NCBI GenBank assembly: GCA_964017195.1
Contig: OZ024894.1
Location: 34,655,614 to 34,719,613 of the forward strand
Reading direction: 5' to 3'
DNA: 64,000 nt
Origin: Siderastrea radians
Taxonomy: Eukaryota; Cnidaria; Anthozoa; Scleractinia; Rhizangiidae
Positions 22,433 to 56,360 of this stretch are shown piece by piece (positions within the stretch are counted from its first letter, which is position 1; each line of letters opens with the position of its first letter). The translations under genes and the position numbers were made by a program. The notes beneath the pieces were generated by a model. The model ran no database searches and was not told the DNA's origin. It saw nothing but the letters and a program-made list of their open reading frames with translations.

Positions 22433-23241
22433 GTAAGAGAAGTAGCTTTAATAGTGAGGGGGATAACTTGACTTTATTTAAAGGCAACGAGCGCCACAAA
22501 ATAGGAAGAAAGTATACAGTTTAAGCAATGTTTTCCCAAAAGAAATATTGTCTGTTAACAGTATATTGATTGACTGAGAAATGTAAAACTTGTTTTTTTT
22601 GGCAAGATCAAACCTGAATTATTCGCCGGACAAGAATTAACTCCGTTTCCTATTTGGCGACTCCTGATAAAAGATTATAAGATCAGGGGCAATTTATTTG
22701 TTGCATACATGCATGGCACCTCGTTAAAGACACAATAAATCCCAGCTATAACTGCGAGTTAAAAATAGCTAAATTATTTGAAATGTAGTTGAGGTGGCAT
22801 CACAATAATAAGTTACTGTCATCATTGGTGATTCCGTTCCGCCACGAGTCAATCCATCAAGCTGAGTGATTGGAACATCATATCGAAGTCATGAGCTCGA
22901 ACCCCTTCGGCTGTATTTACATGTAGGCCCCTTCTCTTAACAAAACGTCGGCTGAATGTGCTTTAATTAATAATTCCTATTTTGTTGTAAACGACGATGT
23001 TAAGTCAGTGTTGACTGAGCTTGGTATCTGTTAAGAGCGAAGGTGGGCAGAAAAAAACTCGGCGTCCGCTTAAACCCATGACCTGCCGCAAGGATCAATT
23101 GATGATGTCGAAAGCGTCATGGGCAATAATGAAAAGAAAGTTGGTAAATGTGTACTTGACCATGTAGTAACTATATTCAGTTTGTTTTCGAGCATGGGGC
23201 TGCAAATAATAATTGTTACTACACTTTGTTCATTGCTATAG

Positions 23242-31328: not shown

Positions 31329-31578
31329 TAACATTATGCAAAGAGGCCATGATCACGCAATATTGATTGCTTATACTTGTTTATACTTCTTTGACTTGAG
31401 TTCATATATTTCTTCTTCGCTTAAAAGACAGGCTACGGATTATTTATTATTATTAACATTATGCAAAGAGGCCATGATCACGCAATATTGATTGCTTATA
31501 CTTGTTTATACTTCTTTGACTTGAGTTCATATATTTCTTCTTCGCTTAAAAGACAGGCTACGGATTATTTATTATTAT
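31329..31578 (+). promoter_or_regulatory. Perfect 125-bp tandem duplication of the B2 upstream block
   Basis: 31329-31453 and 31454-31578 appear identical apart from their edges. Each holds ATGCAAAGAGGCCATGATCA, TTGATTGCTTATACTTG, GACTTGAGTTCATATATTTC and ACAGGCTACGGATTATTT. Identity indicates a very recent event. The same core is single before B3 and duplicated differently before B1. Confidence 0.8.
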
Positions 31579-31649
31579 TTTGTATTTTTTTGTATTTTAC
31601 TTTATTTATTATTGTTATTATTTTATTTTATTTTATTTTATTTTTGCAG

Positions 31650-33568: not shown

Positions 33569-34704
33569 GTAAAAATTAAACATTATTCTTCACTTTCGCC
33601 ATGAACAACTCCTCTCACATGAACTCCAGTGATTACGTGACGTGCCCATACATGTACGCCGTATCTACATTCTTCACAACAACGTTAGCTCTAATCAGCT
33701 TAGCAGCTTTTATTGGCAACATCCTCGTGATTGCTGCAGTATACAAAACTCCAATCCACAGAACAAGTACCAACTATTACTACGTTAACATGGCAGTTTC
33801 TGACTTTCTTTGTTGTCTCGTGACTTGGCCTTTGTACTTCACTGACGTGTTCGTAACAAGCAGTGGAAGCCTGATCGAAGGTCCTCTGGCCACAGTTGGG
33901 TGTAAAGTAGGAGTCTTTCTGAGGATGGCGTCGTATTCTGTATCCAATACAACCCTGGTGCTGATCGCTGTAGACAGATTCATTGCTATTGTATTTCCCT
34001 TAAAAGCCACAATGCTCAAACGAAAAATAAGACTATTTTTAATACTTGCAACTTGGTTGATATCTCTAGCATGTTGGTTTCCTGATCTCTACTTTTCTAA
34101 GATTAAAAACTTTGGTCATGTAACATGGTGCAGTTTTGCATGGGATCGTTTAACGGCTGTGATCTACTACACAGCTGGCACAAGCATGACTACTATTGCA
34201 CCATTAGTAGCTATTATTATCTTGTATTGCCGTATAATGTGTGTTTTAAAGAGAAACTCCATACACGAATTCAACACCGGAAGCAATAACTTTGAACAAA
34301 AAAGGCGAGCGCAGAACCAAAACATTATGAACATATTCAAATCAATTGTTGTAGCTTACTTTGTTTGCTGGTTTATGTTGTGCATTTGCACGATTTTACA
34401 GATCACTTCCCCTGAACTTTTTATCGAAGATGAGTGCGACTGGATTCTGGGTTTTTCGTATTACGTGTTTCCATTACTCAGTACGGTAATCAATCCAGTA
34501 ATTTTATTCTCATTTAGTTCAAACTTCCGCCATGCTTTGAAAATGTTGTGCCCCCTTTCCTTTAGAAAATGTATTTCATGTTTCAAAGCAAGCGTTATTT
34601 CACCTGATCTAGGAAATGACGGCCATCCAGAACTTGTGGCATATCCAATGGACGAAAGAAATAGAGAATATAACGAAATCGAGAAAAGCAATTTATCCAC
34701 CTAG
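33569..34704 (+). CDS. Class A GPCR, subtype B2, intact
   Basis: ATG at 33601, 367 residues, in a single coding exon preceded by acceptor ATCGACAG. The layout matches B1: glycosylated short N-terminus, NMAVSD in TM2, the TM3-ECL2 Cys pair, DRF, VCWFM in TM6 and NPVIL in TM7. The C-tail is a few residues longer than in B1 and B3 and ends EKSNLST. It is more diverged from B1 and B3 than those are from each other, so it split earlier. Substitutions include Asp in place of Gly near the start of TM7 (ECDWILGF against SCGWILGF) and several changes around ECL2, which may alter ligand preference. No lesion is seen. AATAAA follows at 34749. Confidence 0.9.
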
Positions 34705-37332: not shown

Positions 37333-39590
37333 TTAGGCTGGTTTAACTCATCACTGCTGCTGAACCAATATGAATGACTCAGAACGGTTTGAAATCAGAC
37401 TGGGGTGCCACTTAAGCATGAACAGGGTTCCAATTGGTCTGAGATATTTGTTTTGGGTATGCACGTTTAATAAGTGGCGTTGGAGCATTCCAAGCTGTTG
37501 GATAATAGATAAACTGGATTTTTAAGGATGGGATGGTTGCGGACAATATTAACACAAACAGAGTTTAGATTGGTCTCAGGTAAACACTTCATGCCAGTCT
37601 GACTTTCAGACCGGTCTCATGTAAACAAAATCGTATCAGTCTGAGTTTGCACCAGTCTCATGAAATCAGGGCGTTACTGCCCCTGGGTCTCTGAGGATGT
37701 TGTTAAACATTCTTGAGAGCTGCTCGACTTTAGGCTAAGGGGGTGTTTACATAATACCAGCATGATTTTTATTCTGGTACAAGTTCCTCCCGATTTCCTT
37801 TTGTTTCTCTGTATTTGTTTAATGATTACAGCACAAAATCTCATAACTGTACAAGTCATACATGTGTGAGCTTGCCCCAGTAGTGGTACTGGGTCACAAT
37901 AATCACTGTGGTACGGAAACCCAACATGGTATAACTGCTTGACTCCTTCTGCATTAAGTTTTAACCCTTTAACCATCAAGAATAAATCTTACATCACCGT
38001 GAAAAATGGATTTTGTAACTTAAGTGGGTATAAGGTTTTCATCACCTACCCCAATGGAAGTCTTGATGGAACACTCATGTAAATGTTGTGATTTAATTTT
38101 ATCCTTGGTTCAACTTTTATTTTCCTTTGTGAGTATTAGGATTGCCAAATTTTCTTTTTGTTTTAGCCACCCAGTCTTCTATGTGTTTACACGACAATAT
38201 AAAACAGATCATGCTCAAATTCCACACTACAGAAATTTGTGCTTGTTCTCACACACTAAAAGGCAGATGGTTTAAATATCTGGTATATTTGAATGATTTT
38301 AAAACTGTTTAACTGTGCTTAATTATGTTTGACTGGGTTCAGAAATTGGAAGCAAACACTGCTGTATGCATATTATTGGTTTAATTGTGTTCAACTACGG
38401 AACCCAAATTAAACCAATCACTGCATTTGACCCAGTTCATTTTACTGAACAGTGAGATAGTACGTAAGCTGGGATAATTATATGATTGATATCTTCCATG
38501 TGCATACCTTCACTGTAAGAAAAGCTACATCACTGATCACTGCTGACATATACATGCCTAGTATAGATAAAAAAAGGATCAGTGGAAACAACAACTTCAG
38601 GGCTAAAAATTGACAGTCTCCTGGTTGCCAGTAGCAATTTAAAACTGACCAGGGCCACTAAAAGTTGAGGTTTGTTTTTACTGACATATGACTCCAGTCT
38701 TACTTGGAGTTCTACAGTATGTGGTACTTTTTCCACATGATTATTGGCGAAATCCCTGGATAAAAGACTTACTTCTCACCCGGGTTAGGAGGGGTCTATT
38801 CAAGTAAATATCGTTTTAATTTCTTTTATTTAGACTTGAGGATTTTGAAAGCCACTTTATCTAAATGGCCTGGTCCACTATACTAAGCGAGCAAGTGAAA
38901 AGACCCTGGGGACGAGGTTGGAATTCAAGGATACTGGCCCGAGTTGCAATTCAATGATTCAAGCACTGAAGTTAATTTTTTACCCTGCAAATTATGGAAT
39001 AACTTAATCAGTAAAAGTAGAGAATGAGATGTACATAAAAATTACATCCACCTGCTTTGAACTCGATTATCTTAAGCATATTTTCCCAAAAGTGATCAAC
39101 ACATAACTTTTAATAAAAGTTTTACATGTACTTAATTCGAAATTTAAATTTGTTGTTTGTCATCAAATCATGCCAACTATAGCTTTGAACCTTACTTAAT
39201 CTAAGAAACATTCGTGAGTCATTAGATGTATATAAATAATTTGCAAGCAGTGAAGAAAAGCCCAGCTAATAAACAAATGGAGTTGGAGATAAAATAAAGT
39301 ATGTTATGTGTTATGTTATGTTGTTGTGAGTTGTGTACAACACGTAAGCTTAAAGGCCCACCTTCACCCAAACGGCCTTGCGACCGTTTGTTATTGTTTT
39401 CAAATGGCTCTATTGTTTTTCTCGCGATCTGATTGGTGGCCAGAATATTCCTATGACAGTTATGGGTCTAAAATTGAACTGGCTAGGAGTTGAGCACGGC
39501 TAGTCCTAAATGCTCTGGAAGTATGACTTTCTTAGACTGTAATGCTTTCAGATCTGCATCAATATTTTTACGTAATCCATTGGGTGGCAA
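37333..39590. other. Repeat-rich intergenic, no gene recognised
   Basis: 37340-37680 has GGTCTGAG / CAGTCTGA / ACCGGTCTCATG words and two GTAAACA motifs, like decayed MITE sequence. The rest has short frames only. The left end of the large polyprotein element must lie somewhere in or left of this stretch, but I found no matching terminal repeat. Confidence 0.4.
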
Positions 39591-39896
39591 TCAGTGAGGA
39601 ATCACACGGCAGGGTACAAAAGGGATTTCTTCTCTCAATGTGACCCAGAGGCGATGGTTTCCCTCGGTCAAATAAGCACGACCATTCTGCAGGTCGCATG
39701 AGATAATCAAGGGCTCTTGAAATCCCTTCTTTAGAATGAAACGCCTGACTTGTTCCAAGTGATCATTAGCGTTTCCCAGCTTTGGTGTAAGTGATCTGTC
39801 AAATTCTCTGTACTCCCATAATTCTGTTGTTTTTACCATTTGATAATCATGTGTTTGGTCAAACAAATCAGACATGTAAAATTTTGCACACATCAT
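39591..39896 (-). pseudogene. ParB/sulfiredoxin-fold-like domain, C-terminal part of the polyprotein
   Basis: 101 codons. The sequence has the ParB-like core: an N-terminal strand region (about residues 25-35), a helix (NDHLEQVRRFILKKG), then EPLIISCD..NGRAYLTEGNHRL, in which GNHR matches the conserved G-x-x-R signature of ParB-type nuclease/NTPase folds, and a final VPCRVIP strand. It lies in the same frame as 40121-39900 and is separated from it by one TAA (39897-39899) directly followed by ATG ATG. It may be the last domain of the polyprotein behind a nonsense codon, or a separately started product. Its function in the element is unknown; single-domain ParB folds can be nucleases or regulators. 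Confidence 0.6.
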
Positions 39897-41340
39897 TTAA
39901 TTTACATTTTCAGTGGGCTCATCAAGTTTTTGGAAAAATAAACCTGAACTGTCTAATGGTTTGAAGTCACTTTCAAAGTCATCCTCACTATCACTAGAAT
40001 TTTGTAGAGCTGCAACCATTTCTTTAAAAGATTTAATTGTTGGTGATTGTTCTTCTTCTTCTGATTGATCTTCCGTTTCATCTCTTACTGTAATTTTCAG
40101 TTTTCTTGGTGGATGATGCACCGGTTTACAGGTACTGCTTTTTTGTTTTTTTTAGTGGGGTGTCTTTCAGGTGTATAGCCATGTTTGACTGGTGTTAAGT
40201 CTAGCCTTTTGGTGCCTGCAGTTGCTGTTATAGTTTCCTGTGTTTTTACCAAGTTAACCATAGATTCATTTACAAAAGTTACAGGAACGAAGTCATTGAG
40301 TTGTTTAGTAGATGGATTAGAGTTGTACTTCTCAGGAGCTTCAAAGTAGTTCTCAATATTGCAATCAGGTACAAAAGTTATGGGTACACTTGAACATGAG
40401 TTGCAGTGTTTCAGTAAAAGTTCCTTTAGGTCAGCTATTTTCCTATTTGATTGTGCAGAGATATTGTGATGTTGAAGAGTAGCTTTAATGTTTGTAAGGC
40501 TGGCCTTGTTGTCTCTTAGTATCAGCAAGTTTTTGTGCTTTTCAATAATTTCTTTAATTACTTGACTATCATTCAAACTGTCTGGTCGGTTAAATGTGAC
40601 TCCATTGGCAAGTGTGTGTGATGTTGCAGCTCTTTCAAACATTAAAAGGTACAAATTCTCCTTTTCAAGAAATAATGGTCTTGGACCAACAAAGGTTGCT
40701 TTGCCATTATTCCATAGACCATTGTAAACAAACCAACCATTTTTGGAACTTTTTTGAGTGGAATGCACTTCACAACAGTAGTGATGTGATTTCAGGTAGA
40801 CAATGCCAGATAATCTATACACAGAGCCATTAATATCAATTGTGGTGTTTTCCTTGTCCAAGCTTGGTGTGTACCCTTTTGTAGAATTGCCTGTGTACCC
40901 GACAAAAAATATGTCAGGTTGGTTAAGAACAGTTGTTGATTGCTGCACCGCTGCTCCACAAGTCACAGGATCACTTATGATAGCCAAGTCAGAGTCCATG
41001 ATGTTACTTGAATCATTTTTCATCAGAATAGAGCATTTTGATGTAGGGATAAAATTCGTTAGTGTAAGTTTGTGTTTAATCACCTGAATAACATCAAACT
41101 CTTTGGAATCTTGGAGTAGGTGTTTGTCTAATACATCATCAGTGCTGACTGGAAACACCTTATGTCTATAAGTGCGCAATGATTCATGGCTTTGGCCATT
41201 ACTGCATGATTGTGAATAATTTGTTTTGAGTGGAAATTTTTGTTGAAGATCTTCTGGCATGGATTCAAGAAGCCTGTATAGGATAGAATCAAGTGCGGCT
41301 TCTTTTCCATAGGCATAGTATGTGTGACCATTTAATGTTT
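39897..41340 (-). pseudogene. Protease-like domain plus acidic linker of the polyprotein
   Basis: The main frame is 41260-40097 (387 codons) and can be extended upstream in frame to about 41340 (NGHTYYAYGKEAALDSILY...). About residues 150-205 (YRLSGIVYLKSHHYCCEV, then GWFVYNGLW and LYLLMFER) resemble the His-box half of papain-fold ubiquitin-specific (C19-like) proteases; the Cys-box partner is not obvious, so this is tentative. A basic stretch then leads, across a frameshift in the A-run near 40140, into an acidic linker at 40121-39900 (TEDQSEEEEQ; SSDSEDDFESD). If the reading is right, a deubiquitinase-like domain sits in the same polyprotein as the ubiquitin-like domain encoded at 48842-48630. 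Confidence 0.45.
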
Positions 41341-41354
41341 TGACTTAACCACTT

Positions 41355-42119
41355 TCACGATGTCATTTTACTTTCATGAAATTGTCCCTTTTCCCTTAAT
41401 ACAAAAGAATCAAGTAGTGCAGGAAGGCCTTGTGACATATTTACATTTGGAGAACTAAAATGACGTTTGAAACTGTGATAGGTCATTTCAAGGAAAGTGT
41501 CTTGATGACAGCTGTTGTGTATTCCATTAGAGCCATACCTATAAGATTGATAGGACAGTTGTTGTGCACCTTGTGACCTACTAATCCTTTTTCTGCATAC
41601 CTCACATGGAGTGAGTTTGCATTTCCATTCTTCATCTTTGCAACCCTGACACTTACGGGAAACACTTTTTTGCTTGATTGGTTTGTCTATAGTCTCAAAC
41701 TTCTTCAGGTCACCATGAGACAAAACATTTGGGGTTATTAGAGAATTAGGAATGAAACTAATACAGGGACTTTTTGTGGCAATTTCCTTACTTCTTTGCT
41801 TAAGACCAAAGACATCCTCATGCCATGCTGGTTCTATCTCATCAGAAGCAAGATTCCAAAATTTGTAAAGGTAATTTAAAAGCAATTCTATATAACTGTC
41901 ATCTTTCTCAACAAGAAAAACTTTGGTGCCCACAGGAGTCCAAACAACATAGTGACATTGTTGAGTGGTTGTACAGTACATTTCCAACATAATTTGAGGG
42001 ATATGGTTGACACACACACTTTTGTAAGGGACTGGTTTGCCTCCCATGAAAGGACATTTAATCTCAAGAACTGTTTTTCTTTTTCCATCTAACTCTATGA
42101 TGCCATCCGGAGAAGAACC
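41355..42119 (-). pseudogene. YqaJ-type nuclease, C-terminal half
   Basis: Reading on the minus strand from the end of the nested insertion: GSSPDGIIELDG, then KTVLEIKCPF and HIPQIMLEMYCT, matching the YqaJ/lambda-exonuclease fold pattern D-G ... E-x-K ... Q-x-Q/L, with catalytic Asp near 42097, Glu and Lys near 42064-42070, then YVVWTP and a closing FW helix. A Cys-rich patch follows (CQGCKDEEWKCKLTPCEVCRK, 11 residues between pairs). The N-terminal half is at 44188-44545; joining the flanks after removing one copy of the two-base duplication keeps the frame. The frame ends at 41355 and the polyprotein continues in another frame. YqaJ nucleases process DNA ends in phages and are common passengers in eukaryotic transposons. 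Confidence 0.75.
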
Positions 42120-42121
42120 AA

Positions 42122-44187
42122 CCCGTACGAAAATATCAGGCCTGACTGAGCCACATTCAGGCCTGAATCTGACCTTAATTGCTAGGTCAAAGCATAAACA
42201 GAGCCAGAGAGGAGCGTATCAGATATTTTTTAGGCTTAACTGATAGAAGGAGCTATCTTTACATCTCTGTGAGCATAATTTTAGGCCTGAATTCAGGCCT
42301 GAATTTAGGCTTTAACTTAAAATGATGGAAGTGAAATCCAACCGGCTACTCTCAGCCTGATGGGAGCCTTATTAAAACCTTAATTATGTGTTACCTCAAC
42401 TCTCCCAGCTGAAAATTTTCTATTAAGCGCTCTAATTTCAGTTTGCAGAAAAAACTACGGTCAACTATTACTCAGTAAATTAACGCAACATTTGTGAGGT
42501 TGCTGCTCGGCCGTGATTAGCGGGAATTAGCACTTGATGAACATTGAACTTGCAGTTGGCAAGGTTCGTTCTGTTTTTGTTCAAACACGAAATTTACACC
42601 AAAGAGACTGGCCTGATATCGATGAAAGAATGTTTTGAAAAAAGGCGTTCAGGGGTAGTCAGTGATTTAAGTTGTACATTTTACTCACCAGAGTGGAGCA
42701 TTTAATTCCCTTGCTACGGCTCTCTACAGAAAAACACGCAAGCCGCTTGTGTACAGAGAAAAGGTGCTCAATTTAGAAACATTTTTTTTGAAAAATAGTT
42801 TCCATTTTCTTTTCCCCCGCAATTTAAACGAATATTCCTTGCAGATTGCAAGAAGTATCCAGAGCTCCTCTATAAGATCTGAACGTGACATCAATGCATG
42901 CCGGAATGCGGCCTCAAAGTCCCTTGAGACACGTTAAGACAACATGTTTATTGTTGCAGAAAGCCAGCTCATGTTACAAAAGTTAACTCAACCTTTGTCA
43001 ACCGTTACAGTTACACAACCTAAAGCGGGAAAATTTCTGGTAGAGTTGCGTCTCATTTTCGAGATGGTTATGGGAATATTCCTTTGCTTTTACCTGAACA
43101 CTGATAAGCTATTCCAGCAAGTTTGTCAATTTGTATAAGCAGTGATTCCTCATTGTGATCGTGGAAGCAGGAGTCAGGAAGAGTGCTGTTTTTGTCTGTT
43201 GCCTGAGATCAGTGATTTGGGATATGTTCTCCAGTCTGTTGATAAAGTAGATCGGTGGCCTGCAGGAACGCAATGTTCATCGATAATTATAGACTTTCAA
43301 AGAAAAGAAGCAAGAGACAGATTGAGGTGAGCAACTTTCAACATGTGTTGCCTCGCGGTACTAAGCCGAAAGCGACATAAGACAAAGACCAACGGTTACG
43401 CATCCAATTCAGTTCTGTAACTAATGGCACATTCCTTGGTGATTTTATTCTTTTTTGCAGTTCACTGGATTGTAACCAGTGTTGTAATTTGCCTTGTGAG
43501 CATTAAGCAGAATGTACAGTGACTAGAATTTGTATCTCATCTGTGAACAAATTTGTAAATATTTTAATTTCGTTATGTTCAAGTCCTCAGCAGACTAAAT
43601 TTTACACAGTTGGTTAGGTTACAATTTGACTGTAACCCGTGAAAATATTAAAGACATAGCTTTTTCTAAGGCATGTACTGGTGTTTCATTGTGACTGTGA
43701 GTTTTAGCATGGTTGGCGTACAAAAATGTGGCGCTCTGATAGGTTGTGCGTTGTATCGCGTGCTTCGTACAGAAGATCTGTCCAAGATTCTTTTTCTTTG
43801 GCTTTGTTGTGTACCATATCAGTGTCTACATATTTCAAGCTTAAGATTATTTCAGGCCTTATTCAGGCCTTTTTCAGGCCTAAATATTTATCTATTGACA
43901 TCAAAGTGTAATTCAATCGACCCACGAGTCCTACAGCAATTAAGGCCTGATTATGGCCTCATTCAGGCCTGAATGTTTCCATTGATTTCGTGCCTAAAAT
44001 TTTTAAGGCTTCGAAGCCTTAAGAATTTCAGTTATTTAAGGCTTGATTTTAAGGTTACTGTGAGGTTCCCTTAGCCTAAATTCAGGCTTCATTTTTAAGG
44101 TTCTTTTCAGGCCTGATCTGGCTTTATTCAGGTTTCAAAAGTCAGGCCTTATTCAGTCTCGCGTAAGGTCTGAAAATTTCGTACGGG
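42122..44187. mobile_element. Nested non-autonomous DNA transposon with subterminal AGGCCT repeats
   Basis: The left end CCCGTACGAAAATATCAGGCC and the right end reverse-complemented CCCGTACGAAATTTTCAGACC form terminal repeats. It is flanked by AA on both sides (42120-42121 and 44188-44189). Both ends carry clusters of CAGGCCTGAAT / TTCAGGCCT words (42140-42310 and 43855-44160), typical of transposase-binding subterminal repeats. It splits the YqaJ domain exactly between WL and GSSPDG. No transposase-like frame is present in the 2,066 bp. The superfamily is not assigned; a two-base duplication would be unusual except for Tc1/mariner (TA), so the duplication length should be checked. Confidence 0.85.
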
Positions 44188-45042
44188 AAGCCATGATTGA
44201 TTTTTTTCATCATTTAAAAGCCAAATCCCAGTTTCTCTTACAATTAAATTGTCTTTATTTTTGGCCAAAAACCTTTGTAAGTAGGTGACAAGGGCACTGT
44301 CTTCATTGATAGAACCCCATAACATTGCCAAATTTGATTCATTTGCTTCTTTAGTTATACCATGTAAATCATTACACAAATCATTCCAGTAATCATTCAT
44401 GGCCTTTTTCCCATACCACCCAAGAGCTGTTGCTGCCTTGCTTCCATTGATTTTCCCCTTGCGAGCATTAAACCACTCAGCAGTTCTTTGTTTGTAAAAT
44501 TTGGGATCACAGGTACTTGAAGTTTCAGAAGATATTGACTTGTCGCATTTGAAATCATCAAGACTCTTCACAGATAAATTACCAAGGAATTTTATGAGTG
44601 ATGTACCAGTCTGGAACCATGCAGGTTTTACTGTTGGGGGTTTATTTTGCTTAATTTTTGTTTTAAGCTGACCATCATTTTTAATTTTGTTTGGACACTC
44701 TGCTTTAACGTGGCCCTGTTTGCAACATAAATAGCAATTTTGCTTGGCCAGCCACTCTGGTTCATGTCCTTCGGGACAGTCATTTGCCCAGTGACCTTCT
44801 TGTTTATGGCACCGAAAACAAATATCATTTGATTGTGCCTTTGCTGTCATGTTTCCATTAGATTTCTCGTTGAACTTTTTTAGCATTTGTCGTACAGCAG
44901 ACTCATCCTCTTCATGTTTTGGTGCAAGGCCATCTCTAGCTAAGTAGGTTACGCATCTTCTTTTTGTAAATTTTCTTACAAAAGCAGAAAGAACCTGACT
45001 TGAAAGCCTTATTTGTGATTCTGGCATTAAAACCTTTTGTCA
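44188..45042 (-). pseudogene. Zinc-knuckle region and YqaJ nuclease N-terminal half
   Basis: From Met at 45027: a basic N-part, then two zinc knuckles at about residues 70-113: CFRCHKQEGHWANDC (one residue longer than the CX2CX4HX4C norm) and a canonical CYLCCKQGHVKAEC. The YqaJ start follows with FYKQRTAEWFNARKGKI and GSKAATALGW, then LAMLWGSINEDSAL, the W-G-x-x-x-E signature of YqaJ N-terminal helices. It breaks at NQSWL where the nested transposon sits. The upstream coding continues in the same frame beyond a TGA at 45040-45042, so the Met is probably not the true start. Confidence 0.7.
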
Positions 45043-47980
45043 TAGCTTTTTCCAGTAAAAAGAAAGTGCTCTGTCAACCTTAAGTTGATTGATGGCTTCT
45101 TGAAGTGAGTTGTTAGACCAGTTGCCAGTAAAAAATTTAGTGCGCAGATGAAAGTCTAGTTGCGTTGCAAACATTAATACATGCTGATGGTTTTGATTTG
45201 CATGTAAGGCAGTCAGTATAGGTTGACATGTTTGTAGGATTGTAGCAGGTGAAAAGAGATCAATATATTCAACAGTTTGCTTAACATGTCGAGATGCTGT
45301 TGTTTGTCTGCGGCATCGTGGAAGTTTTCATCAAAGTCCCATGTGCCTTCACTAAATTCTTGATCACACAATTCCCATCCTTCTTTTTCACTAAAATGGT
45401 TCAAACTGTCAGGAAATGTTCGTTTTGGTTTAGATAAGGGAAGAGAAACCAGATTAGGAAGGGCTGTCAAATCATAGGAACCACATGTTCCTTGGGCATC
45501 TTTCATTTCAGAAGACAGAAGTAGTTCAGTTTCCAGAGAAGCTGATGACTCAAAATACTGTAATGCTGTTGGTTTTCCTCCTGACACTCGTGCACGTTGC
45601 AAGGAGAAATAATCATCCTGGCACATGGTCTTTGGAATGATGTGTAATTCTGGATGATGCATTTGCAAATATTGAACTACCCCCAGAAAAGCTCTAATGC
45701 TTCTCTTTAGGTCATTGAATGTGATCCGAGGTATAAATTTTTTCCAGTGTTTTTTTAAACCACTGGTTGCTTACAAACTTTCCTGTTTGGTTTCTTTGTA
45801 CCATTCATCAAACCAGAGCACTATTGTTAAAAGTTCTTTATAACACTTGGGATCAACCTCCAAATTGTTGTTAAATTTTCTAAATAATTTGTAGCACTGC
45901 TCTATGTAGGTGCGTGTTGCAACTGTTTCTTCAGGGGGTAAAGGTCCCTTTAGGATGTCTAATGCTACATCAATAGAGCAAAGGGTGACAGCCCTTTTGA
46001 CACTCATTTTGGTTCTAGGTGTTAACTTTAAATGCTTCCAGGTTACTTTGGTTAGCTGGTGTTTTACAACTGGTATTAAATGATCTGCTGTTATTTGTTT
46101 ACCCTCCTTTTCTAATTGCCCATCAGGATTGACAATGAAGTTTCTCAATTTTTTAATCATATGGGGGTAATCTGAAAGCCACCAAATTGGCTTGTTGTCA
46201 TTGAAAGGATTATATGTCACCCAATTCTGTGCTCCAGCTCGACTGAAAAAGGCATGTGAATATGTTGAACCATCGGAAACACCATATATAACCTCTATTT
46301 TTTCCCATTTTCAAGATTAAGGCCACCAATTGCTTCACATACTTGCCAAACAAGAGAGGAAAGAATTCTGTGGTCAATTTTTTGCAATGGAAAAGAAGCC
46401 ACTGGCCATGAAAAATCCCCTTCTATTGACGAGTAGAAAAATTGGCAAATAAGTTTGGCTTTTTTAGATCGGTTTGTACATGTAGGTTCCTCATTTGAAA
46501 GTATTCCATCAGTGTCAGAGTTAGAATCAGTATGACGAGTGTCAGAATCACTTGATTCAGAAGAGTTGTCATCATTGTCGTCTTCATTCTCAAGATGTGG
46601 ACTCAGATTTATTTCAGAGTTAATATTTAAATCTTTAAATCCGACTAATTCTCCTGTCCTTTTTACAAAGTACTATTCCTTCCTTTACAGTCATTTCATC
46701 CCAGTGAATGCCCCCGACTCCTTTACAACCCCTCCTTGTCATTTCTTGAACCATGAGCGCCAGATTTTGCTGAGATATTGGGCTTGTTGTACTAGCTGCC
46801 TGTCTTTACTGCTTAACGGTCTCCCAGGTTGGTATGGGTAGAATGCTTCGTACAACATCATATCCTTTCTTATGACACTTACTAGCTATCAAACAGCTCC
46901 ATTTAATAACAAGACGATTATATCTCATTCCTTTCGGATGTGGCTTCTGATTGCTTTTTGTCAGATTTCCATGCCTTAAAAATTCCTCCTCCTGACGTTT
47001 AAGAGATGTCAAAGTATCAGTCAGGAGGGCGTACAAAACAGAGTTTTCAGTAAGCCACTGGTTTTGCAAGGCAATATCCATCAATTTTTGAAGGTCAGAG
47101 GATCTGGGGTTGAAATTTTTGGGAGCTTCAACTTTTTTTTGTTTTTCTTTTTGATACAAAAAAATGTAGTATCGTTTTGCCTTTCTTTGGGTTTGGGCAA
47201 CCATTTTGTGTAGGTTTTTGGCCCTGATAATTAGTTCAGCACGAGATAGTCTGCTGAGATTAACATGGGAGTCATGAGCTGTTTTGGATTGTGTACTCTC
47301 AGGAGAAGGTTGTTTTTGCCAACGCATGTTTGACCTTACAAAAACCTGGCATTCATTACATCTTACTTTTGATTCGTTTAGAATGTAAGAACACTTGGTG
47401 CTTCTTATACATTTAACAATTTTTCCATCAACAATTGACCTTTGAGAGTCAATTTGGAATAAGGAGGTCTGTTCTTTTCTTTCAGCAATGTCAATCATCG
47501 TTGGATCATTTATTCCACGACAAACACGTAATTCTTCAGTTGTTTTGAGTATCATTTGTAGAGCAGTTTTAAAATGTTTGGCTGAAAGATAAACTGTGGA
47601 AGTTCCCCATAATCCACTTTGTTCCCCATGATATGCACTGTAAAATGACAAATGTTATTTGTTGCAGTTGGCATATTTAAGGGAAGGAAAAAGGTTATTT
47701 CTTTCCAGTTGGGTATTTGAACACCATTTGTTACATTTGGCTTAGTAAGAACAACCTTGAGACTGTCATCAGTTGTTTTCGAATTTGAAAATGTTACTGT
47801 CCATGGAAAGATGTCATAGAGAACAGATTGAAAGATTGTATATGCATTTGCTTGCAAGGGCTCTGAGAGATTTCCTCCAGAAGCATAGCACCCCTCAGCT
47901 GTGTTTGCTGTGGGTCTTTGGTCTTCCAGAAGTTGTATTAACCCTTGTGTAAAAATCCCTGCTTTTAATTTTGAAATCAT
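45043..47980 (-). pseudogene. P-element / THAP9-like transposase, broken
   Basis: 47980-47650 and 47651-46806 give an N-terminal part with a CX5C...CX2C zinc-binding patch, a coiled region, and MRYNRLVIKW...LPIPTWETV, the pre-catalytic signature of P-type transposases. After an in-frame TAA (46806-46808) the same frame reads SPISQQNLALMVQEM and then GGIHWDEMTVKEGI, with the first catalytic Asp at 46698-46700. After frameshifts near 46655 and 46300 it reads VIYGVSDGSTYSHAFF and IWWLSDYPHMIKKLRN, the second Asp at 46170-46172, and MSVKRAVTLCS. Further shifts lie near 45770, 45750 and 45260. The third acidic residue was not placed. P-type enzymes cut and paste DNA through an RNase-H-like fold. 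No THAP zinc finger is seen, which is unusual for the family. Confidence 0.78.
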
Positions 47981-48510
47981 GGGTAACTCAAATTTGCTTC
48001 TGGTACATCAGAGGTTTGAGTGGAAGTGAAGCTTTCTGTGTGTGGTTTGGCTTGGATGGCAGGGTCAGACCAAAGTGATGGATTGGAACATTTTTGTGTC
48101 CCTTCAAACATAGCTTGAGCTTTCATGTACTCGTCCTGTATTTTGACAGATCTAAAAAAAAATGGCTGGCATGACATTAATGTAGCTTACTTTAGATTCA
48201 TCATTTGAATCTTTAGCTTGATAAAGGTCATTGTGAAAATCAGTTTTATTTCCAGTTTGCTCATCTAGAAAGTTACATGCTACTGCAAACAGATTGTTGA
48301 ATACATTTATGTTGCGTTTATTGCAGGGAATGTCACTGGAAAGACAGACCTCGTTTCTGCACTGTGAACATTGCACAATGCATGGATTGACCTTTAGAAT
48401 GCCACGCTGGGCGTCACTTCGAGATTTTGATGAATTTTTACCCTTTGCAGGCTTGTGCCCTCTGGATGTTAAACTGGCATAGTGTTTATCACAAAACCCT
48501 TAGATTCTTA
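47977..48510 (-). pseudogene. Cys-rich linker of the polyprotein
   Basis: Continues the 423-codon frame after a frameshift near 48510: CDKHYASLTSRGHKPAKGK, then VNPCIVQCSQCRNEVCL and DIPCNKRN, a cluster of Cys/His pairs that could bind zinc. A one-base change in a run of nine A (48153-48162 on the plus strand) then shifts the frame to 48177-47977 (RSVKIQDEYMKAQAMFEG). The family is not recognised. Confidence 0.5.
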
Positions 48511-49760
48511 ACATTTTCCATATCACCAGTTAGGTCTTGAGGGCTACACTTAATTTCATACCTTCCAATTAGGCTGTCAAATTTGCGAGTGCCTGCATCA
48601 TTTTCGCACCCCTTAAGGCAACATTTTGCACCTCCAGTTAAACGCCCATTCATAATTACAGCCCCAGATATTTCTTTCAATGGCACAAAGTCATGTAAAG
48701 GTTTACCACTGCTTGAAAGCCAGTATAAATCACTTGTTATGTTAAATTTGGAATTCACCTGTGACCTCAAGTCAGAAACAGTTGCATGTGGTGCAAAGGT
48801 AAAAGAGTGTGATTTTCCTGTTACATCCATAACTAAAATAGATGTAACAAACCTTTTTGACCTAAACACCATACTGAAGAAAATACCAGGGTGGTGAAGT
48901 TCTGCCATTTTTATATAAGGATAACTCAACAACACACCAAGGAAAAGATACAAAATAGGGAACAACAGGGGAAGGTCTGTAGGAAGAGTGGAGCTAGCAT
49001 CAAAGCTTTCACCAACTGTTGTAACAACTACCAAATATGAAACCACCAGAAATCGATAGGGTAAAGCAGATATGGTCAGAATGAGAGCAGTGGCTGCTAA
49101 GTAAAAGGGGACAGAATGGCCTGCTGCCATAGTATGATTTGTTGCAAGATTTAACAAGATGCTGTAGTACAGTAAAAGACATGTGATCATAACAGTGGAA
49201 AGAAAAACCTTTGATGCTAGATTCCAAAAATATTGCACAAGAAAGAATTTGGGTAGTGACTTGAAATGTAAACAAGTCTTATAAAGAGGTTCAAGCAGAT
49301 ATAAAGACAATTTTATAATAACAACAGCAGGAAAAAAGATTATCTCCAACAAATAATTTAGTGTTTGGCTGTCCTTTACAATGTGCTTTGAACAAGTTTT
49401 GCAAATGATTTCCCAGTTCATGAGGACAATGATTGTAAGTACAGCACAAACAATAGTAATGGTTGAATAAAATAGATTGGACAGGAGAGTGTGATGAAAT
49501 TGCCTTGTTTTAAACTGTTGTAAACACAAGCATAACATCAGTAACAGTGCCCACTGAAGCACACCCAAATTTGCATCAATCAGATGAACACTTGCCCCAC
49601 ACCATTGGCGTGGCATTTTTTGATTGGAATTTGGCAGGAACTTGAAGGAATGTAAAGGGTATGAGGCAGCCTTGCAATGTTTGGAAAGGCTTTTGAAATA
49701 GCTGCCATTACAACATGACTGAACAGAACAGATGCCACAAGATACACAAAGAAATGGCAT
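48489..49760 (-). pseudogene. Multi-span membrane domain fused to a ubiquitin-like domain, N-terminus of the polyprotein
   Basis: 423 codons from ATG at 49758-49760. Residues 5-35 are Cys-rich. Residues 65-300 hold six or seven strongly hydrophobic segments (for example WALLLMLCLCL, STITIVCAVLTIIVL, FFPAVVIIKLSLYLL, LAATALILTISALP, LLFPILYLFLGVLL). Residues 307-377 (48842-48630) read as a ubiquitin-like beta-grasp: ILVMDVTGKSHSF, TVSDLRSQVNSKF, GKPLHDFVPL, VIMNGRLTGG, the last close to ubiquitin's R-L-R-G-G end. A Cys-rich stretch follows (AKCCLKGC). The frame is intact here, so this part has decayed least. The membrane family is not recognised. The Gly-Gly followed by more protein suggests a processing point; that is inference. 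Confidence 0.6.
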
Positions 49761-50818
49761 TGCTCATGGAAAAAACAAGTAACGTTTATACTAAATCATA
49801 CAGCAAAATTGCCGTTACCAAAATTAAAAGAAATACCATTTTTAATTCGTAATTTGTTTCTTTATATTTTCTGCTAAATAATAATTATTGACACTACAAT
49901 AATATTACATTAATATTGTCACTTTTCGTTTAATTATTATTAATTATTATTATATACAACTATTTTATTATAATTAGAACTATTTTTCTTTTTTTCTTTC
50001 TTATAAAGTAATTATATTATTCAGTAAAGTAAATGTTGTGATTTTTATGTCAATTTATTGTCACACTTGTGTGTTCAACACCAGACTTTATATAATAGTA
50101 TATACACCAAATTTGAAAACCAAGTAAAGCTTATTCCCGAAGGCACACTGTTTTTAAAAAGAAACAATGAAACAATTTTGAAGGCCACGCAAGCGCAACA
50201 CCACATGATAACGACAGCAAAACAACCACAACACAATACACTGTATTTACCTCGCAGGAAGCAACAATTATGCCACACAGATCAAAATTACCGCACAATC
50301 AATATTTTAAAAAGCCAATAGATTGCATTAAGCAGCGTAAAAGCCCACAAATTTAAAAACAGAAAACCAAGACAATTAACACAAGGACAGTCGGACGAAA
50401 GATTGAAGACAGCCAACAAAAGTAGGCACTCACAAAGAGACAGAAATCGATCACACCGCTGTGACATTTGGAGGGAAATCAAGAAATCAACAATAGCCCA
50501 CACTCAAACGGACTGATATGGAGAACGGCTGATTCAATCCCTACAAAAATGTATCGAATTTAAACGTGTGTGATCAGTGAATAAAACCTCCTATTCTGAA
50601 GACTATTCGTTGCGTATTTTAGAGAAGAAAAGGAACTGATTAACGTTGACCTTGCTGGTCCCGCAAACAAGATGGCGGTCCCGCCACAAAGTCCTCGACA
50701 CAAAAATTACACAATTACGCACACAAAACACTACAACAGTTTATACAAACAGATAAAAGCAACAACAAAGCTCACACACTAACGATCAAATTATCGAACA
50801 ATAGCGATATTAGCCTAG
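49761..50818 (-). other. Upstream region of the polyprotein gene, interrupted by the LINE
   Basis: AT-rich with AATTATTATTAATTATTATTA runs at 49920-49980, then less AT-rich toward 50640-50720 (GCAAACAAGATGGCGGTCCC). No gene seen. 50806-50818 is the left copy of the LINE target site; the original sequence continues at 56194-56360. Confidence 0.45.
50806..50818. repeat. Left target-site duplication of the LINE
   Basis: GATATTAGCCTAG, repeated exactly at 56181-56193 just after the poly-A tail. Confidence 0.9.
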
Positions 50819-50917
50819 CCTAGAGTTTGAGGGATTACCGCTGATCATGGAGGAGTGAGGACGTCTCTTGCAACGCTCCGCAGAAAAACTGAAAAATTTT
50901 AGCCTAAAATCCCGCGT

Positions 50918-51835
50918 ATGGAATTTATCAGATCAACTATCAAGAGAAAATCGCGAGGTTCATCTTCTGGAGACTCTGCCTGCTCCCCAGACGAGAAGAA
51001 ACAAAAAGAAAGTTCTGGAGATATTATCCTTGAAGCCTTCAATATGGCGGAAGGTATGGCGGAAGGTTTGGCCGAGAAGGTCGACCTTATCTTATCGAAA
51101 TTGTCCAAGCTTGACAAACTGGATCAGATCGAACTCCGTCTAAACAACCTTACCACCTTTGTCTCCAGTATTGAAATGTCCGTGAGTAGGCTTGAAAAAG
51201 AAGTCTCAGCTCTCGATTCTAAAACCAAGACCATCGACAAGTCGGTCAACGAGCTGAAAGAAAGCGTAAGTTTCTGTGAAGATGAAATTGAAGAAATGAA
51301 AAAGAATGCCTATGACATCAAAGACGGCTGCACTTCAGACATCGAAGACCTACGTAAGCAGTTTTTGTATTTAGAACATTACAGCAGAAGGGAAAATTTA
51401 AAGTTTTTGGGCATTCCTGAGAGGATCATTTCTGCCGACGAAGATGATGACAGGCCGAGCGAAGACACGAAGGCAATTGTTTACAAGTTTATGGAGGATG
51501 AGCTGGCGATAGAAAACCCACAGCAGAAAATTGAATTTCAACGCATTCACCGTTTGGGAAAATCAGCCAAGAATGGGCCACGTCCAATCCTAGCCCGATT
51601 TCTCCGCTATTCAGACCGCGAGGAAGTTTTACAGCTGGCTCGAAGTAAGTTGAAAGATTCTGATTTTGCAGTCTACGAAGACATTCCCAAAGAACTGTAT
51701 GACATTCGAAAAGCTCAAATGCACAAAGTTAAAGCAGCGAAGAAAAAGGGTTTAAAAGCTGCTTTCAGTAAGGTCCAGCCTGATCGCCTCTTTACTAACG
51801 GCAAATTTATCCCTGTAAACCAACCGTATTTCTAG
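50918..51835 (+). CDS. LINE ORF1 protein (L1-type RNA-binding chaperone)
   Basis: 305 codons, open. Residues 1-35 are basic and Ser-rich. A long coiled coil at about 45-130 (repeating LSKLDKLDQIELRLNNL and ISRLEKEVSAL-like heptads) should trimerise the protein. LEHYSRRENLKFLGIPE at about 147-163 is the classic entry to the L1 ORF1 RNA-binding domain. FQRIHRLGK and RPILARFLRYSDREEVL, then VYEDIPKELYDIRKAQ, form the C-terminal domain. The usual role is to coat LINE RNA and act as a nucleic-acid chaperone in the cytoplasm. It is the only undamaged frame of this element. Confidence 0.88.
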   Translation: MEFIRSTIKRKSRGSSSGDSACSPDEKKQKESSGDIILEAFNMAEGMAEGLAEKVDLILSKLSKLDKLDQIELRLNNLTTFVSSIEMSVSRLEKEVSALDSKTKTIDKSVNELKESVSFCEDEIEEMKKNAYDIKDGCTSDIEDLRKQFLYLEHYSRRENLKFLGIPERIISADEDDDRPSEDTKAIVYKFMEDELAIENPQQKIEFQRIHRLGKSAKNGPRPILARFLRYSDREEVLQLARSKLKDSDFAVYEDIPKELYDIRKAQMHKVKAAKKKGLKAAFSKVQPDRLFTNGKFIPVNQPYF

Positions 51836-52172
51836 GTTTATTGTCTTTTCCTTCATAAATTATATAACTATGAGACACCACTCTTGTAAGAAACAAAAAT
51901 TATGCAAGAATGCAGGATTTTGCTTTGAATAGCCTTTTAACGGCTCTGCGGAGCGTGCATGACGCCCGGAGAAGATGACGCCCACACAACTTGTTTTGGG
52001 GCAATGGGTAACACTATGCTTTTTTCTTTGTTTTGTTTTGTATGTGTTTAAAGTTTTTCCAGATATCAGTTTTTTCAATAAGTTTATCAGTTTTTGCAGT
52101 GTAATTATCTCTTTTTGTTCACTCGGCTCCACTTCCTTTAATGTTTCCATCTACTACTTTTAACACCCCCAC

Positions 52173-55100
52173 TTGAGTATCGCTAATTATAATTTTAAGC
52201 TTTTGTCCTTAAATGCTCGAGGGATTCGCGATTTTCATAAGCGTAAAGCAATTTTTACATGGATTAAGAAACAAAAAGTCGATCTCGCTTTTCTCCAAGA
52301 AACATACAGCTCCCGTGAAATTGAAAATCAATGGAAGTTTCAATGGCTAGGCAGAATGTTGTTTTCGCACGGCACAACTCACAGCAAAGGCGTTCTTATT
52401 CTTTTCAGCGGCGATCTTCAGATTGATATTAAGAACGTGCAGGGGGATAGCGAAGGCCGATATATCTTTGTGGAAGCACTTGTTCAAGATACACCGTTTC
52501 TTTTTGTTAATTTATATGCGCCAACGGAAAGGTGTGAACAATGCCCTTTCTTTGATCGCTTTGCCGAGGCTTTAGAAAACATGAATGCCGACCCCAACAG
52601 TCAAATTATCATTGGTGGTGACTTTAACACTCATCTTGACCCTATACTTGATAATCTAGGAAGAAAGAATAGAATCCAAACCTTCTGTTAAAAAACTTAA
52701 CGAAATAATGACGGCAATGGATCTTATTGACATTTGGAGAATTCGCAATCCCGAAAAAAAGCGATACACGTGGACTCAAAAGAAACCGTTAATAAGACGA
52801 CGCCTAGATTACTGGCTCATCAGCACAGAAATTCAAGATGACATCACGGAAGCAAACATAATCCCTGCTATTAAGTCTGATCATTCGGCAATAACTCTCA
52901 CAATAAATAGCCTAGATAAGCAACCATTTGGCCCTTCTCACTGGAAATTTAATTCTAGCCTCTTAGACGATGCGACTTATATCCATCTCATCACCTCAAA
53001 ATATTCCGACTGGCTTAACGAATTCAAAGACGTCAACGACAAACGCGTTCTGTGGGATCTAATTAAGTATAGAATAAGACAAGTTTCTATTAAATATAGC
53101 AAGGAAAAAGCTAGAGAACGAAGAGCCCGTCTGGTAGAAGCCGAACAAAAAGTTACGCAGTGCGATTTAATCTGCAATACAGACCCTTCAGAGAAAAACA
53201 TCTATAACCTTGAGACTGCAAAATATGAATACGAACTTCTTTACGACTATATTGTGCGGGGAAACATTGTAAGATCAAGAATAAATTGGTATGAAAATGG
53301 CGAAAAAAATTCAAAATACTTTCTTAATCTAGAAACTACAAGGTCCAGTAAAACCGCGGTCCGTCGACTTTTTGATTCTAAAGGAAAGATAACGGTTAAC
53401 CCACAAGCTATAATGAACGAACTTAAAAGCTACTATCAAAATCTATACAGTAGCCGCGATCACGACTCGAATGAGGATCTTTGCTCAGATTTTTTGGATA
53501 ACAATAGCATCCCAACTCTAAGTGAACAATCAATGTTGGTATGCGAAGGAAAGCTTTCGCTCACGGAATGCCATAAAGCTCTACAAAAATTTCCAAACGG
53601 TAAAACGCCGGGTAATGATGGCCTTACTGCCGAGTTTTACAAATGTTTTTGGAACTTACTAGGTCAGCAACTTACGGACTCCTTAAATTTCTCTTTTGAG
53701 AACGGCGAATTATCTAACTCACAAAAACAGGCTGTCATTAGGCTTATAGACAAAAAAGACAGGGACAGAAGATACATTAAGAATTGGAGACCTATCTCTC
53801 TTTTAAATGTCGACGTTAAAATTGCCTCGAAAGCCCTCGCCTCGCGTTTAGAAAAAGTTTTACCAGAGATCATACATCCTGATCAGTATGCTTATGTCAA
53901 AGGAAGAACGATATTCGATGCTGTTAGGACAATTGACGATATTATGGAATACACTAAAATCAAACAGCTACCTGGACTAATGGTTGCTTTCGACTTCGAA
54001 AAAGCTTTCGATTCATTAAGTTGGCCTTTTTTGTTTAAAGCTTTGAAATCTTTTAACTTTGGTGAGTCCTTCATTAAATGGGTTTCTACACTTTATTCCA
54101 ATATTTCAAGCTGCGTCCTCAACAACGGCTTTGCGACACAAATGTTTGAAGTACGCAGGGGTGTTAGACAAGGTGACCCACTGTCGGCCTATCTTTTCAT
54201 CGTGGCTCTGGAGGTATTGCTTATCAAAATTCGTTGCGATAAGGAGATCAGAGGAATTATGGTTGAAAAAAGAGAAATAAAATTAGCAGCTTTTGCTGAT
54301 GACTTAACTACATTCTTACAAGGAATCAACTCCGTTCAACGCCTTTCTATAATTCTAGACGGCTTTGGAATCTGCTCAGGTCTGAAACTAAATGCGGAGA
54401 AGACCGAAGCTTTATGGTTGGGGAGCAATCACGAGAACCCTCCGTATATCGATATAGAGAAAGTTAATAAACCAATCAAGATTCTAGGGGTGCATTTTAC
54501 TTACAACTGGCGCAAACGTCAAGAACTAAATTTCGATGCTGTATTGAAATCGATATCGAAAACTCTGAAGGGGTGGAAATGGAGGAACCTCGCCCTATAT
54601 GGGAAAATCCAGGTCGTGAAATCCTTCGTCATACCCAAATTTATGTTTCGTGCTTCTCTCATCTGTCTCTCTAAAGATATCATAAAACAGGCTAACTCCG
54701 TTATTTATAAATTTATTTGGAAAGGAACGGATAAAATCAAACGTCTCGCTATTATCAGCGATTACAAAAACGGTGGTTTAAGAATGCCTCACATTGAAAC
54801 ATTAATCGACACACATCGCATTATGTGTCTTAAAAAATATTCTCAGGACTATATTTCCCCTTGGAAGCACATCCTGTCTTTTTTTCTGAAGGACTACGGG
54901 GCAAATTTCTTTTGCATTGTAATTTTAGTGTTGCTGATTTACCTAGCTATCTTCCAAATTTCTATAAAGAGTGTTTCACAGTCTGGTGCAAACTATCAAC
55001 CTTATCTGTTTCAACTCGCGAACATGTCCTAGAACAAGTATTATGGAACAACCAATTCCTTCGCATTGACGGAAAGCCCGTATTCTGCAAGAAAATATCT

Positions 55101-55954
55101 TCTAACGGTATAATATCCCTTGGAAGCATATTGACAAAAAATGGAAATCTCAAACCTTGGAATTTTTTTAAAGTAAATGGACTAAATCCCAACGACTATC
55201 TTCTACTTATAGGTCTTTATAAATCGCTCCCTTTTGCATGGAAAAAACTCATTAAATCCAATGATGAAGCTGATGATCCATCTATCTCTCAAAACACTGC
55301 CCTTAAATTCACTCTTAATTTGAAGGACGATACTCTGAGCCTTGACTCAATTACATCCTCAAAACTGTACTGGAAACAGATAGAGACTATTCAGGTCTAT
55401 CCCTCTGCACGAGTCAAATACACTACTCGATTCTCTACTTGCAATCTTGATTGGGACTCAATCTATTTGATTCCGCACCTTGTCACCCTAGACACCAAAA
55501 CAAGAACTTTTCAATATAAAGTACTTAATCGAATAATCTTTACTAACAAAACACTATACAAAATGAGGTTAGTCGACTCACCTCTTTGCACCTTTTGTAA
55601 AATTTCAGATGAATCCCTCGAGCATCTATTATGTAGTTGTGAATTTACTATAGCTTTCTGGAAGTCTGTTGTTCTTTGGGTTAAGTCTTTACACATTGAC
55701 ATTGACTCTCTAAACGATTGCGACATCATTTTTGGTCTTATACACAAAAGAGGCCTCACTGGCTGCTTTTAAATCATATAATCATTGCTGGCAAACAGAT
55801 TATCTATCAAAACCGTCTGAAAAACTATGTACCATTACTGTCTCATCTTATAGCTAAATTAAGGTATACAGAATCTATTGAACGAGCAATAGCTAAAAAG
55901 AACAACAGACTTAACATACACGAAGGGAAGTGGAAGCCTTTGCTTAATATTTAA
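52173..55954 (+). pseudogene. LINE ORF2 (endonuclease plus reverse transcriptase), three frameshifts
   Basis: The endonuclease part (52173-52691) shows LLSLNARGI, FLQETYSS, NLYAPTE and IIGGDFNTH. A one-base shift at about 52665 moves to 52690-54905, with RRRLDYWLIS and SDHSAITL completing the endonuclease, then the reverse transcriptase: RPISLLNVDVKI, VAFDFEKAFDSL, RRGVRQGDPLSAYLF, the catalytic FADDLTTF and LKLNAEKTEALW. A second shift at about 54905 leads to the C-terminal part with CTFCKISDESLEHLLCSC, a zf-RVT-like finger. A third shift at about 55760 reaches the stop at 55954. Catalytic residues are present, but the chain cannot be made whole, so the copy is dead in cis. Confidence 0.9.
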
Positions 55955-56180
55955 TGTATCAAAAAGATACTGTACCGCTGGAAAAATTTAAATTTAATTA
56001 ATTATTAAATTAATTTTATTTTATTTCATGTTGTTTTTTTCGTTTTAGTGTGTATAGGCCGTTTATTTTTATCTATGACAGTGATGTAATGCAATGTATG
56101 TAGTGTAACGTATGCAACGTAGTCAGTAATCTCAGTCGATGTGTGTATGTAAAGATGTTAAAATAACAATTAAAAAAAAA

Positions 56181-56360
56181 GATATTAGCCTAGTGTTTTG
56201 TCTCTTCTTGACCTCTGTTGTTCTTGCTTCAATGGCGTCCTACGCTAATCTGCACAAACGACGCGAAACTCTCGCCCGTTGCTATGTGACGTCACACTGG
56301 CAAGCGGAATGGGTCAACAAACTTAATTGGAAAACAATAGAGACGCCCCCTCCCTCCTGG
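56181..56360. other. Right target duplication and last part of the large transposon
   Basis: 56181-56193 is the right copy of GATATTAGCCTAG. 56194-56360 is the continuation of 50818 before the LINE landed, ending GCCCCCTCCCTCCTG. The next bases, from GTATTTAGAATTACC, are B-type upstream DNA also found at 15818 and 27299, so the right edge of the large insertion is at 56359-56361. Confidence 0.6.

Follow-up and report, generated by a model that had tools for sequence, protein, structure and literature searches.

Do the dissimilar protein domains read on one strand of a stretch of the Siderastrea radians genome belong to a single mobile element, and if so, what might such an element do with them? 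The stretch, hereafter the window, comprises 64,000 nucleotides (contig OZ024894.1 of assembly GCA_964017195.1, positions 34,655,614 to 34,719,613), and features are numbered from its first letter. An original prediction, made from the letters alone, proposed that positions 39591 to 49760 are an undescribed P-type transposon coding for a giant self-processing polyprotein. P elements are a founding model for the study of cut-and-paste transposition; the classic members code for a THAP transposase and hardly anything more. We judge it probable that window positions 56359 to 39452 are a decayed copy of a P-superfamily DNA transposon of 10.1 to 10.8 kb, better-kept copies of which carry one giant frame, and that its protein is likely cut by a predicted cysteine protease of its own after the RLxGG tail of a ubiquitin-like domain, which would release the transposase. 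That the locus represents a P-superfamily transposon with a single giant protein, not a chance pile-up, is close to certain, because the element has defined ends, flanking duplications, young copies, an open frame of 2,509 codons with its domains in order, and ratios of nonsynonymous to synonymous substitution (dN/dS) that lie well below 1 (0.06 to 0.42) in every module for which they could be computed.

We searched the window's own genome, an 805-Mb assembly of 439 contigs in which the window lies on a 50-Mb contig. Most matches of this search are on contigs C1-C14, in keeping with the 14 chromosomes that many corals have. The protein relative P0001 is located in this genome (100% identity, C14), where several copies match at 98-100% and others mostly at 62-75% (at least 32 matches, with 26 of 233 candidates scored). 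Twelve copies were fetched, five of which were read at both ends. Young copies among them lie at different places in the genome and share 98.7-99.9% identity over long alignments, which only suggests excision and integration activity. Comparison of the ends of young copies set the element boundary: the element begins with CAGGAGGGAGGGGGCG, the inverse of the ...CGCCCCCTCCCTCCTG at its 3' end, so the terminal repeats expected from an alignment of full copies were recovered. The five copies are 10,509, 10,837, 10,833, 10,146 and 10,614 bp long. Direct repeats of 8 bp flank four of them (AATTGGAG, CGAATGAC, CTCCAAAC and GTTGCCAC), and the C9 copy, a sibling of the window copy, is flanked by a repeat of 9 bp (TTTGGGAAC). 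The terminal inverted repeats are perfect over 16 bp and match at 22 of 31 positions overall, and there is a shared subterminal GTACCAGTGTGACGT. P elements are described as making 8-bp target site duplications, and those of Anopheles as having terminal inverted repeats of 27-31 bp (PMC1562414). These repeats became visible only once sister copies were compared; in the window alone, scans for inverted repeats and for duplications combined with repeats stayed at shuffle level.

A search of the genome with the 110-base 5' end gave at least 40 matches, with 40 of 62 candidates scored, and seven of these matches reach 99-100%. Another 33 matches fall at 79-96%, including 18 that correspond to bases 1-86 at 84%, and some of these may be short non-autonomous relatives. 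The young copy at C9:20047976 (L011 and beyond) carries an inserted stretch of ~3 kb after its YqaJ region.

One fetched copy, L010, has a single open frame of 2,509 codons that carries every landmark from the tail of a ubiquitin-like domain (UBL) to a ParB-like domain, in the order RLIGG, CCLKGC, VCDKHY, HWDE, YGVCDG, SDYPH, QDDVEN, two CCHC knuckles, EIKCP, a four-Cys motif, NSCHQD, HYWCEV and GNHRL. When the bases of this sequence were shuffled 200 times, no open stretch exceeded 154 codons. On this frame, Pfam models for YqaJ (1.3e-11), zinc knuckle (1.4e-8) and TNP-like RNase H (4.6e-7) all score above cut-off, and ubiquitin (0.04) scores below it. A second copy, L011, is open from its start codon through eight hydrophobic segments and the UBL to YqaJ. 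Because the two frames overlap, the full protein should have ~2,800 residues, and the one long ancestral frame that had been proposed is thus borne out.

The other fetched copies have the same domain order as far as their frames extend; such co-occurrence outside the locus had been set beforehand as a test. With motif patterns that were composed after the sequences had been seen, the UBL tail is found in the listed frame of 10 of the 12 copies, a strict tail-to-THAP pattern in 9, and both protease-like boxes in 11. The ParB landmark GNHRL occurs in half of the copies (L010, L012, L014, L015, L018 and L019). It is not in the listed frames of L013, L016, L017, L020 and L021, which end before the ParB-like domain, and L011 was read only to an insertion. 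These five copies have nearly identical protease-like segments and look like one subfamily without ParB, which implies that the domain was gained or lost within the family. The predicted ParB-like domain is therefore present but optional.

Relatives were collected with a transposase-region query (17 proteins), with P0001 (12) and with an alignment of N-terminal relatives (8), giving 26 different proteins, one of which (P0018) is from the coral Oculina patagonica. P0001 (1,819 residues) and P0002 (1,438 residues) are both open frames; they share an overlap of 478 residues, in which they are 75% identical. Relatives of lower identity have the same domain order, and two of them, P0006 and P0020, each on an 11,732-base contig, join head to tail when placed on P0004. 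In a tree of transposase cores, the window groups with P0001 and P0002, beside a clade of P0004-P0006, and a clade of P0007-P0013 is more distant. P0006 also has, in frame and upstream of its membrane region, a long stretch of proline-rich repeats and an SGNH/GDSL hydrolase-like domain (residues 53-206; 1.6e-6, below the Pfam cut-off). We did not count the hydrolase-like domain as part of the element, since P0004, from the same clade, begins downstream of it.

The prediction of a P-type transposase is upheld both by the duplications and by a profile match at 7e-11 to 6p5a, the structure of the Drosophila P transposase; the other two matches listed scored 0.59 and 0.73. In this alignment, SDPPH corresponds to SDTPH, the D(2)H motif, and QDDVEN to QD-VEH, with the catalytic Glu aligned. 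The DDE signature of the P superfamily is given as D, D, [C/D](2)H, E (PMC8230255). All four landmarks are present by exact pattern in 10 of the 17 proteins showing any of them, and several of the rest are fragments. TNP-like_GBD, the GTP-binding insertion, scores above cut-off in P0007, P0008, P0010, P0014 and P0015, that is, in 5 of 14 proteins scanned. The family thus combines the DDE signature, the GTP-binding insertion, duplications of 8 bp (9 bp in one copy) and terminal inverted repeats. The features of ISL2EU elements of the PHIS superfamily are not seen: the duplications have 8-9 bp rather than the dinucleotide AT, and YqaJ is in the same frame.

N-terminal to the transposase, a ubiquitin fold with a GG tail is recognized by Pfam, by profile, by tail pattern and by fold search. 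A structure model of P0017 is reliable only at the UBL, for which the fold search returned 283 matches at E<=0.001, led by ISG15 and ubiquitin. The UBL profile matches a ubiquitin-S27a fusion and polyubiquitin through the GG. An RLxGG tail followed by CC occurs in the window and in 10 of the 26 proteins, which are all of those that reach the UBL. The THAP-like module begins 2-3 residues after the GG, and in L010 consists of C-x3-C and, after ~37 residues, C-x2-H. In the P element, the first Met of the THAP domain is reported to contact DNA (PMC3688188), so a free N terminus at the THAP-like module would make sense.

On the other side of the transposase, the zinc knuckle scores above the Pfam cut-off in relatives. 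The nuclease is of the YqaJ, or lambda-exonuclease, type, with a family match and the catalytic SPDG...EIKCP; its profile matches the lambda-type exonuclease 3syy at 9e-15. The pattern SPDG...E-KCP is present in 6 of 8 frames, L010 reads SPDA...EIKCP, and the L017 frame does not cover the site. NCBIfam gave sub-threshold matches only, the best being a lambda-exonuclease family. The protease-like domain has Cys, His and then Trp-x-x-Asn/Asp, a conserved, papain-like order; among proteins that extend to these boxes, the Cys box is kept in 7 of 7 and the His box in 5 of 5. Its likeness is presumably to USP, Josephin and other papain-like deubiquitinases alike, without telling them apart. For the ParB-like domain, ParB_N scores 0.15, below cut-off, in P0001, and a profile search of PDB was negative.

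Selection was estimated by module from comparison of young copies with the subfamilies L019 and L021 and with the more distant L018. The dN/dS values against L019 and L021, respectively, are rough because dS is high throughout and near saturation: 0.39 and 0.40 for the membrane region, 0.08 and 0.14 for the UBL, 0.25 and 0.18 for the middle region, 0.07 and 0.07 for the transposase, 0.18 and 0.17 for the knuckles, 0.14 and 0.06 for YqaJ, 0.16 and 0.16 for the protease-like domain, and 0.18 and 0.29 for the linker. The THAP-like module gives 0.20 against L019 and is not computable against L021, and ParB and the tail give 0.12 against L019 and are absent from L021. The proportion of nonsynonymous differences is below that of synonymous differences (pN < pS) in every module measured. 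Together with the low dN/dS, this speaks for selection having maintained the modules, the UBL and the protease-like domain among them.

These features might be explained by a precursor of ~2,800 residues that is tethered to a membrane by its eight hydrophobic segments. The element's own predicted cysteine protease would cleave after the GG of the RLxGG tail, and thereby free a protein that begins with the THAP-like DNA-binding module, which is the position of THAP in P transposase. The freed transposase would remain fused to the zinc knuckles, the nuclease and the protease-like domain, and its DDE core could then cut and paste the element. The knuckles and the lambda-exonuclease-type YqaJ might trim broken DNA ends, favouring templated repair at the donor site, and the ParB-like domain may be an optional accessory. 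A membrane-tethered precursor cut after the UBL seems to us the best fit, since the GG tail directly precedes a DNA-binding module and a conserved Cys/His domain lies in the same chain. Cleavage after the GG, as predicted from the sequences, comes just short of an even chance. The full proposal, a DNA transposon resembling a polyprotein virus, whose deubiquitinase-like protease would free a finger-first transposase and whose exonuclease would steer break repair, is offered tentatively.

Several results weigh against this proposal. None of the examined copies is open from first Met to last stop, so the undamaged frame that had been anticipated was found in L010 from UBL tail to ParB but not over its whole length. 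The protease assignment, made from sequence likeness, is weak. Among 13 protease-like segments, only one is matched by the Pfam ubiquitin-hydrolase (UCH) model, at E = 0.02, below cut-off, and L018, a close relative of that segment, has no UCH match. A PDB profile search with the domain gave no support, hhalign with a thin USP profile returned a probability of 0.9%, and the structure model of the protease-like half was unusable (pLDDT, the predicted local distance difference test, of 37). The Cys-rich region that had been noted after RLTGG is THAP-like, and Pfam THAP matches only one of five relatives' segments, at E = 0.021, below cut-off, and a PDB profile search with the module found no match. 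In the more distant clade, the THAP-like module of P0009 is not preceded by RLxGG, and the sequence of P0015, a protein with the protease-like domain, begins inside the transposase. The roughness of the dN/dS values counts here as well, as do the ratios against L018, which rise to 0.32 for the UBL and 0.42 for the THAP-like module, with only 11 codons for the membrane region and other modules not computable because dS is saturated.

The same transposon with the same whole protein might instead direct its UBL and protease-like domain at the ubiquitin system of the host, for instance by de-ubiquitinating the transposase or by recruiting host factors. UBL and deubiquitinase-like domains often work in trans, the cleavage product has not been seen, and the distant P0009 lacks the tail before its module. 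Even so, we consider this unlikely, as a UBL that only binds does not need a GG tail, whereas the RLxGG tail is kept in the window and in all ten proteins that reach it, with the DNA-binding module 2-3 residues on. Alternatively, host deubiquitinases could cut at the GG as they do in natural ubiquitin fusions, a comparison suggested by the profile matches to ubiquitin-S27a and polyubiquitin, and the element's protease-like domain would then cut elsewhere or be idle. This we find more doubtful still: the Cys and His boxes are conserved and the domain is constrained (dN/dS 0.16), which indicates that it does something.

Two further explanations concern the element as a whole, and both are extremely improbable. 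Taken alone, the window copy is broken into many frames, as it might be if unrelated neighbouring genes or nested transposons had come to lie on one strand by chance; such juxtaposition is refuted by the single L010 frame with its landmarks and Pfam domains, far longer than any shuffled one, and by the same order in other copies. YqaJ is common in viruses and phages, as its Pfam name implies, which might point to a virus-derived element or a bacterial contaminant. However, the fetched copies sit on contigs of 37-75 Mb. Three viral-contig scans and one scan across prokaryote genomes, all with short patterns, yielded no relative, and a fourth viral scan yielded only a 25%-identical YqaJ-type match. 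We therefore reject a viral or contaminant origin.

The element resembles Drosophila P, Galileo and THAP9-type members of the P superfamily in its RNase H-like DDE core with D(2)H, GTP-binding insertion, N-terminal THAP-like module and 8-bp duplication. Unlike their one transposase, it extends to 10 kb and ~2,800 residues, with a membrane region, UBL, zinc knuckles, YqaJ, protease-like and ParB-like domains in one frame. ISL2EU elements also combine a THAP-bearing DDE transposase with a YqaJ exonuclease, and are described as having mostly two separate frames, an AT target duplication and an average length of ~4.8 kb (PMC4482050); the pairing of THAP transposase and YqaJ thus has precedent, although here there is one frame and duplications of 8-9 bp. 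The window's genome also has other YqaJ-bearing repeats, perhaps ISL2EU-like, seen as sets of YqaJ frames with similar scores: 641 codons long at 4 places and 732 codons long at 6 places. Ubiquitin fusions such as ubiquitin-S27a and polyubiquitin likewise join a ubiquitin-fold GG tail head-on to a C-terminal protein, but the UBL in question is not ubiquitin, follows a membrane region and has as its carrier a transposase that may bring its own protease. The giant Gypsy-like Burro elements of planarians are also transposable elements with a huge polyprotein and ubiquitin-related domains, but are described as retrotransposons (PMC6431247), in contrast to a cut-and-paste element.

No element with this domain set was found in the literature searched, in agreement with the claim that it is undescribed; Repbase was outside the search, and a catalogue entry may exist. 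Self-cutting beside a UBL is likewise not described for any DNA transposon in that literature. This young P-type element, with its one giant protein, is an example of a DNA transposon whose single frame unites a UBL, a protease-like domain and a recombination nuclease, each under selection. It raises the questions of whether polyproteins of DNA transposons are processed in the manner of ubiquitin fusions, whether transposase activity is controlled by release from a membrane, and why YqaJ-type nucleases have paired with THAP transposases more than once, fused here and as a second frame in ISL2EU.

The window copy itself is a dead member of this family of better-kept members. Its closest relative among five compared copies is L019 (C9), with 97.2-97.5% identity over 50804-44188 and 42121-39452. 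P0002 and P0001 align colinearly with it from 49795 to 39486, broken by frame changes, stops, the nested insert (44188/42122) and, near 49.6 kb, a short stretch that does not align. From 38.5 to 51 kb, the stop-to-stop frames were scanned with Pfam as ten pieces, which placed ubiquitin in 48492-49763, the zinc knuckle and the first YqaJ half in 44152-45039, and the second YqaJ half in 41358-42218. These matches and the colinear relatives confirm the predicted domains, their minus strand and their order. The TNP-like GTP-binding insertion scores 0.0043, below cut-off, in the piece 45774-46310, and the protease-like and ParB-like pieces have no Pfam match. Damage was thought to consist of single-base lesions only, but includes frame changes, in-frame stops and an in-frame loss that removed the catalytic Glu, which L019 keeps.

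The predicted locus is real, but its extent was underestimated, as coding runs from an ATG at 49839, placed by comparison with P0002, to a TAG at 39485-39483, and the element starts at 56359, beyond an insertion resembling a long interspersed nuclear element (LINE). Element features lie on the minus strand. The 5' terminal inverted repeat occupies 56344-56359 (16 of 16 bases), and 56359-56227 is 78% identical to the initial 134 bases of young copies. Element matches end at 56227 and restart at 50815, and the LINE-like insertion between them, typed by eye from long open frames, splits the leader (50816-56226, plus strand, edges approximate). The LINE-like element at 50903-55772 (plus strand) has an ORF1-like frame and endonuclease/reverse-transcriptase-like frames, also typed by eye. 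The rest of the leader (50561-50815) is 69% identical to young copies, and L019 aligns from 50804, the start of its fetched stretch.

The predicted N-terminal membrane region (48853-49839) has eight hydrophobic segments in L011, L019 and L021. It is followed by the UBL (48630-48852; Pfam ubiquitin 3.4e-6, above cut-off), which ends in RLTGG at 48644-48630, by the THAP-like C2CH module (48437-48629), recognized by comparison with relatives and starting two residues after the GG, and by a middle region (46968-48436) aligned to P0002. The transposase core (45043-46967) has D1 in HWDEM, D2 in YGVSDG, and SDYPH. Two CCHC knuckles (44690-44825; Pfam zf-CCHC 5.2e-4, just below cut-off) precede the N-terminal half of YqaJ (44188-44480; 3.4e-8, above cut-off), and the C-terminal half with EIKCP is at 41962-42121 (5.7e-4, just below cut-off). 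The nested insert that had been noticed between the halves is 2,066 bp long (42122-44187, no strand assigned), with limits marked by 25-nucleotide inverted ends at 84% and two bases duplicated at the site. Its inverted ends read CCCGTACGAAAAT, and it has several internal ATTCAGGCCTGAAT palindromes. The protease-like domain (40630-41545) has its Cys in NSCHQDTFLE (codon 41510-41508) and its His in SHHYCCEV (codon 40783-40781). A SAP-like stretch, typed by eye, an acidic linker and the ParB-like domain with GNHRLW occupy 39486-40545. The last bases that match sister copies are 39452-39485, and the 3' end of the element is gone beyond 39452.

Related rhodopsin-type G protein-coupled receptor (GPCR) genes, typed by eye and in some cases apparently broken, cluster around the element at 469-1785, 12736-13878, 17814-18926, 23160-24441, 33580-34704 and 58388-59500. 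A 125-bp unit is present in two perfect tandem copies at 31329-31579.

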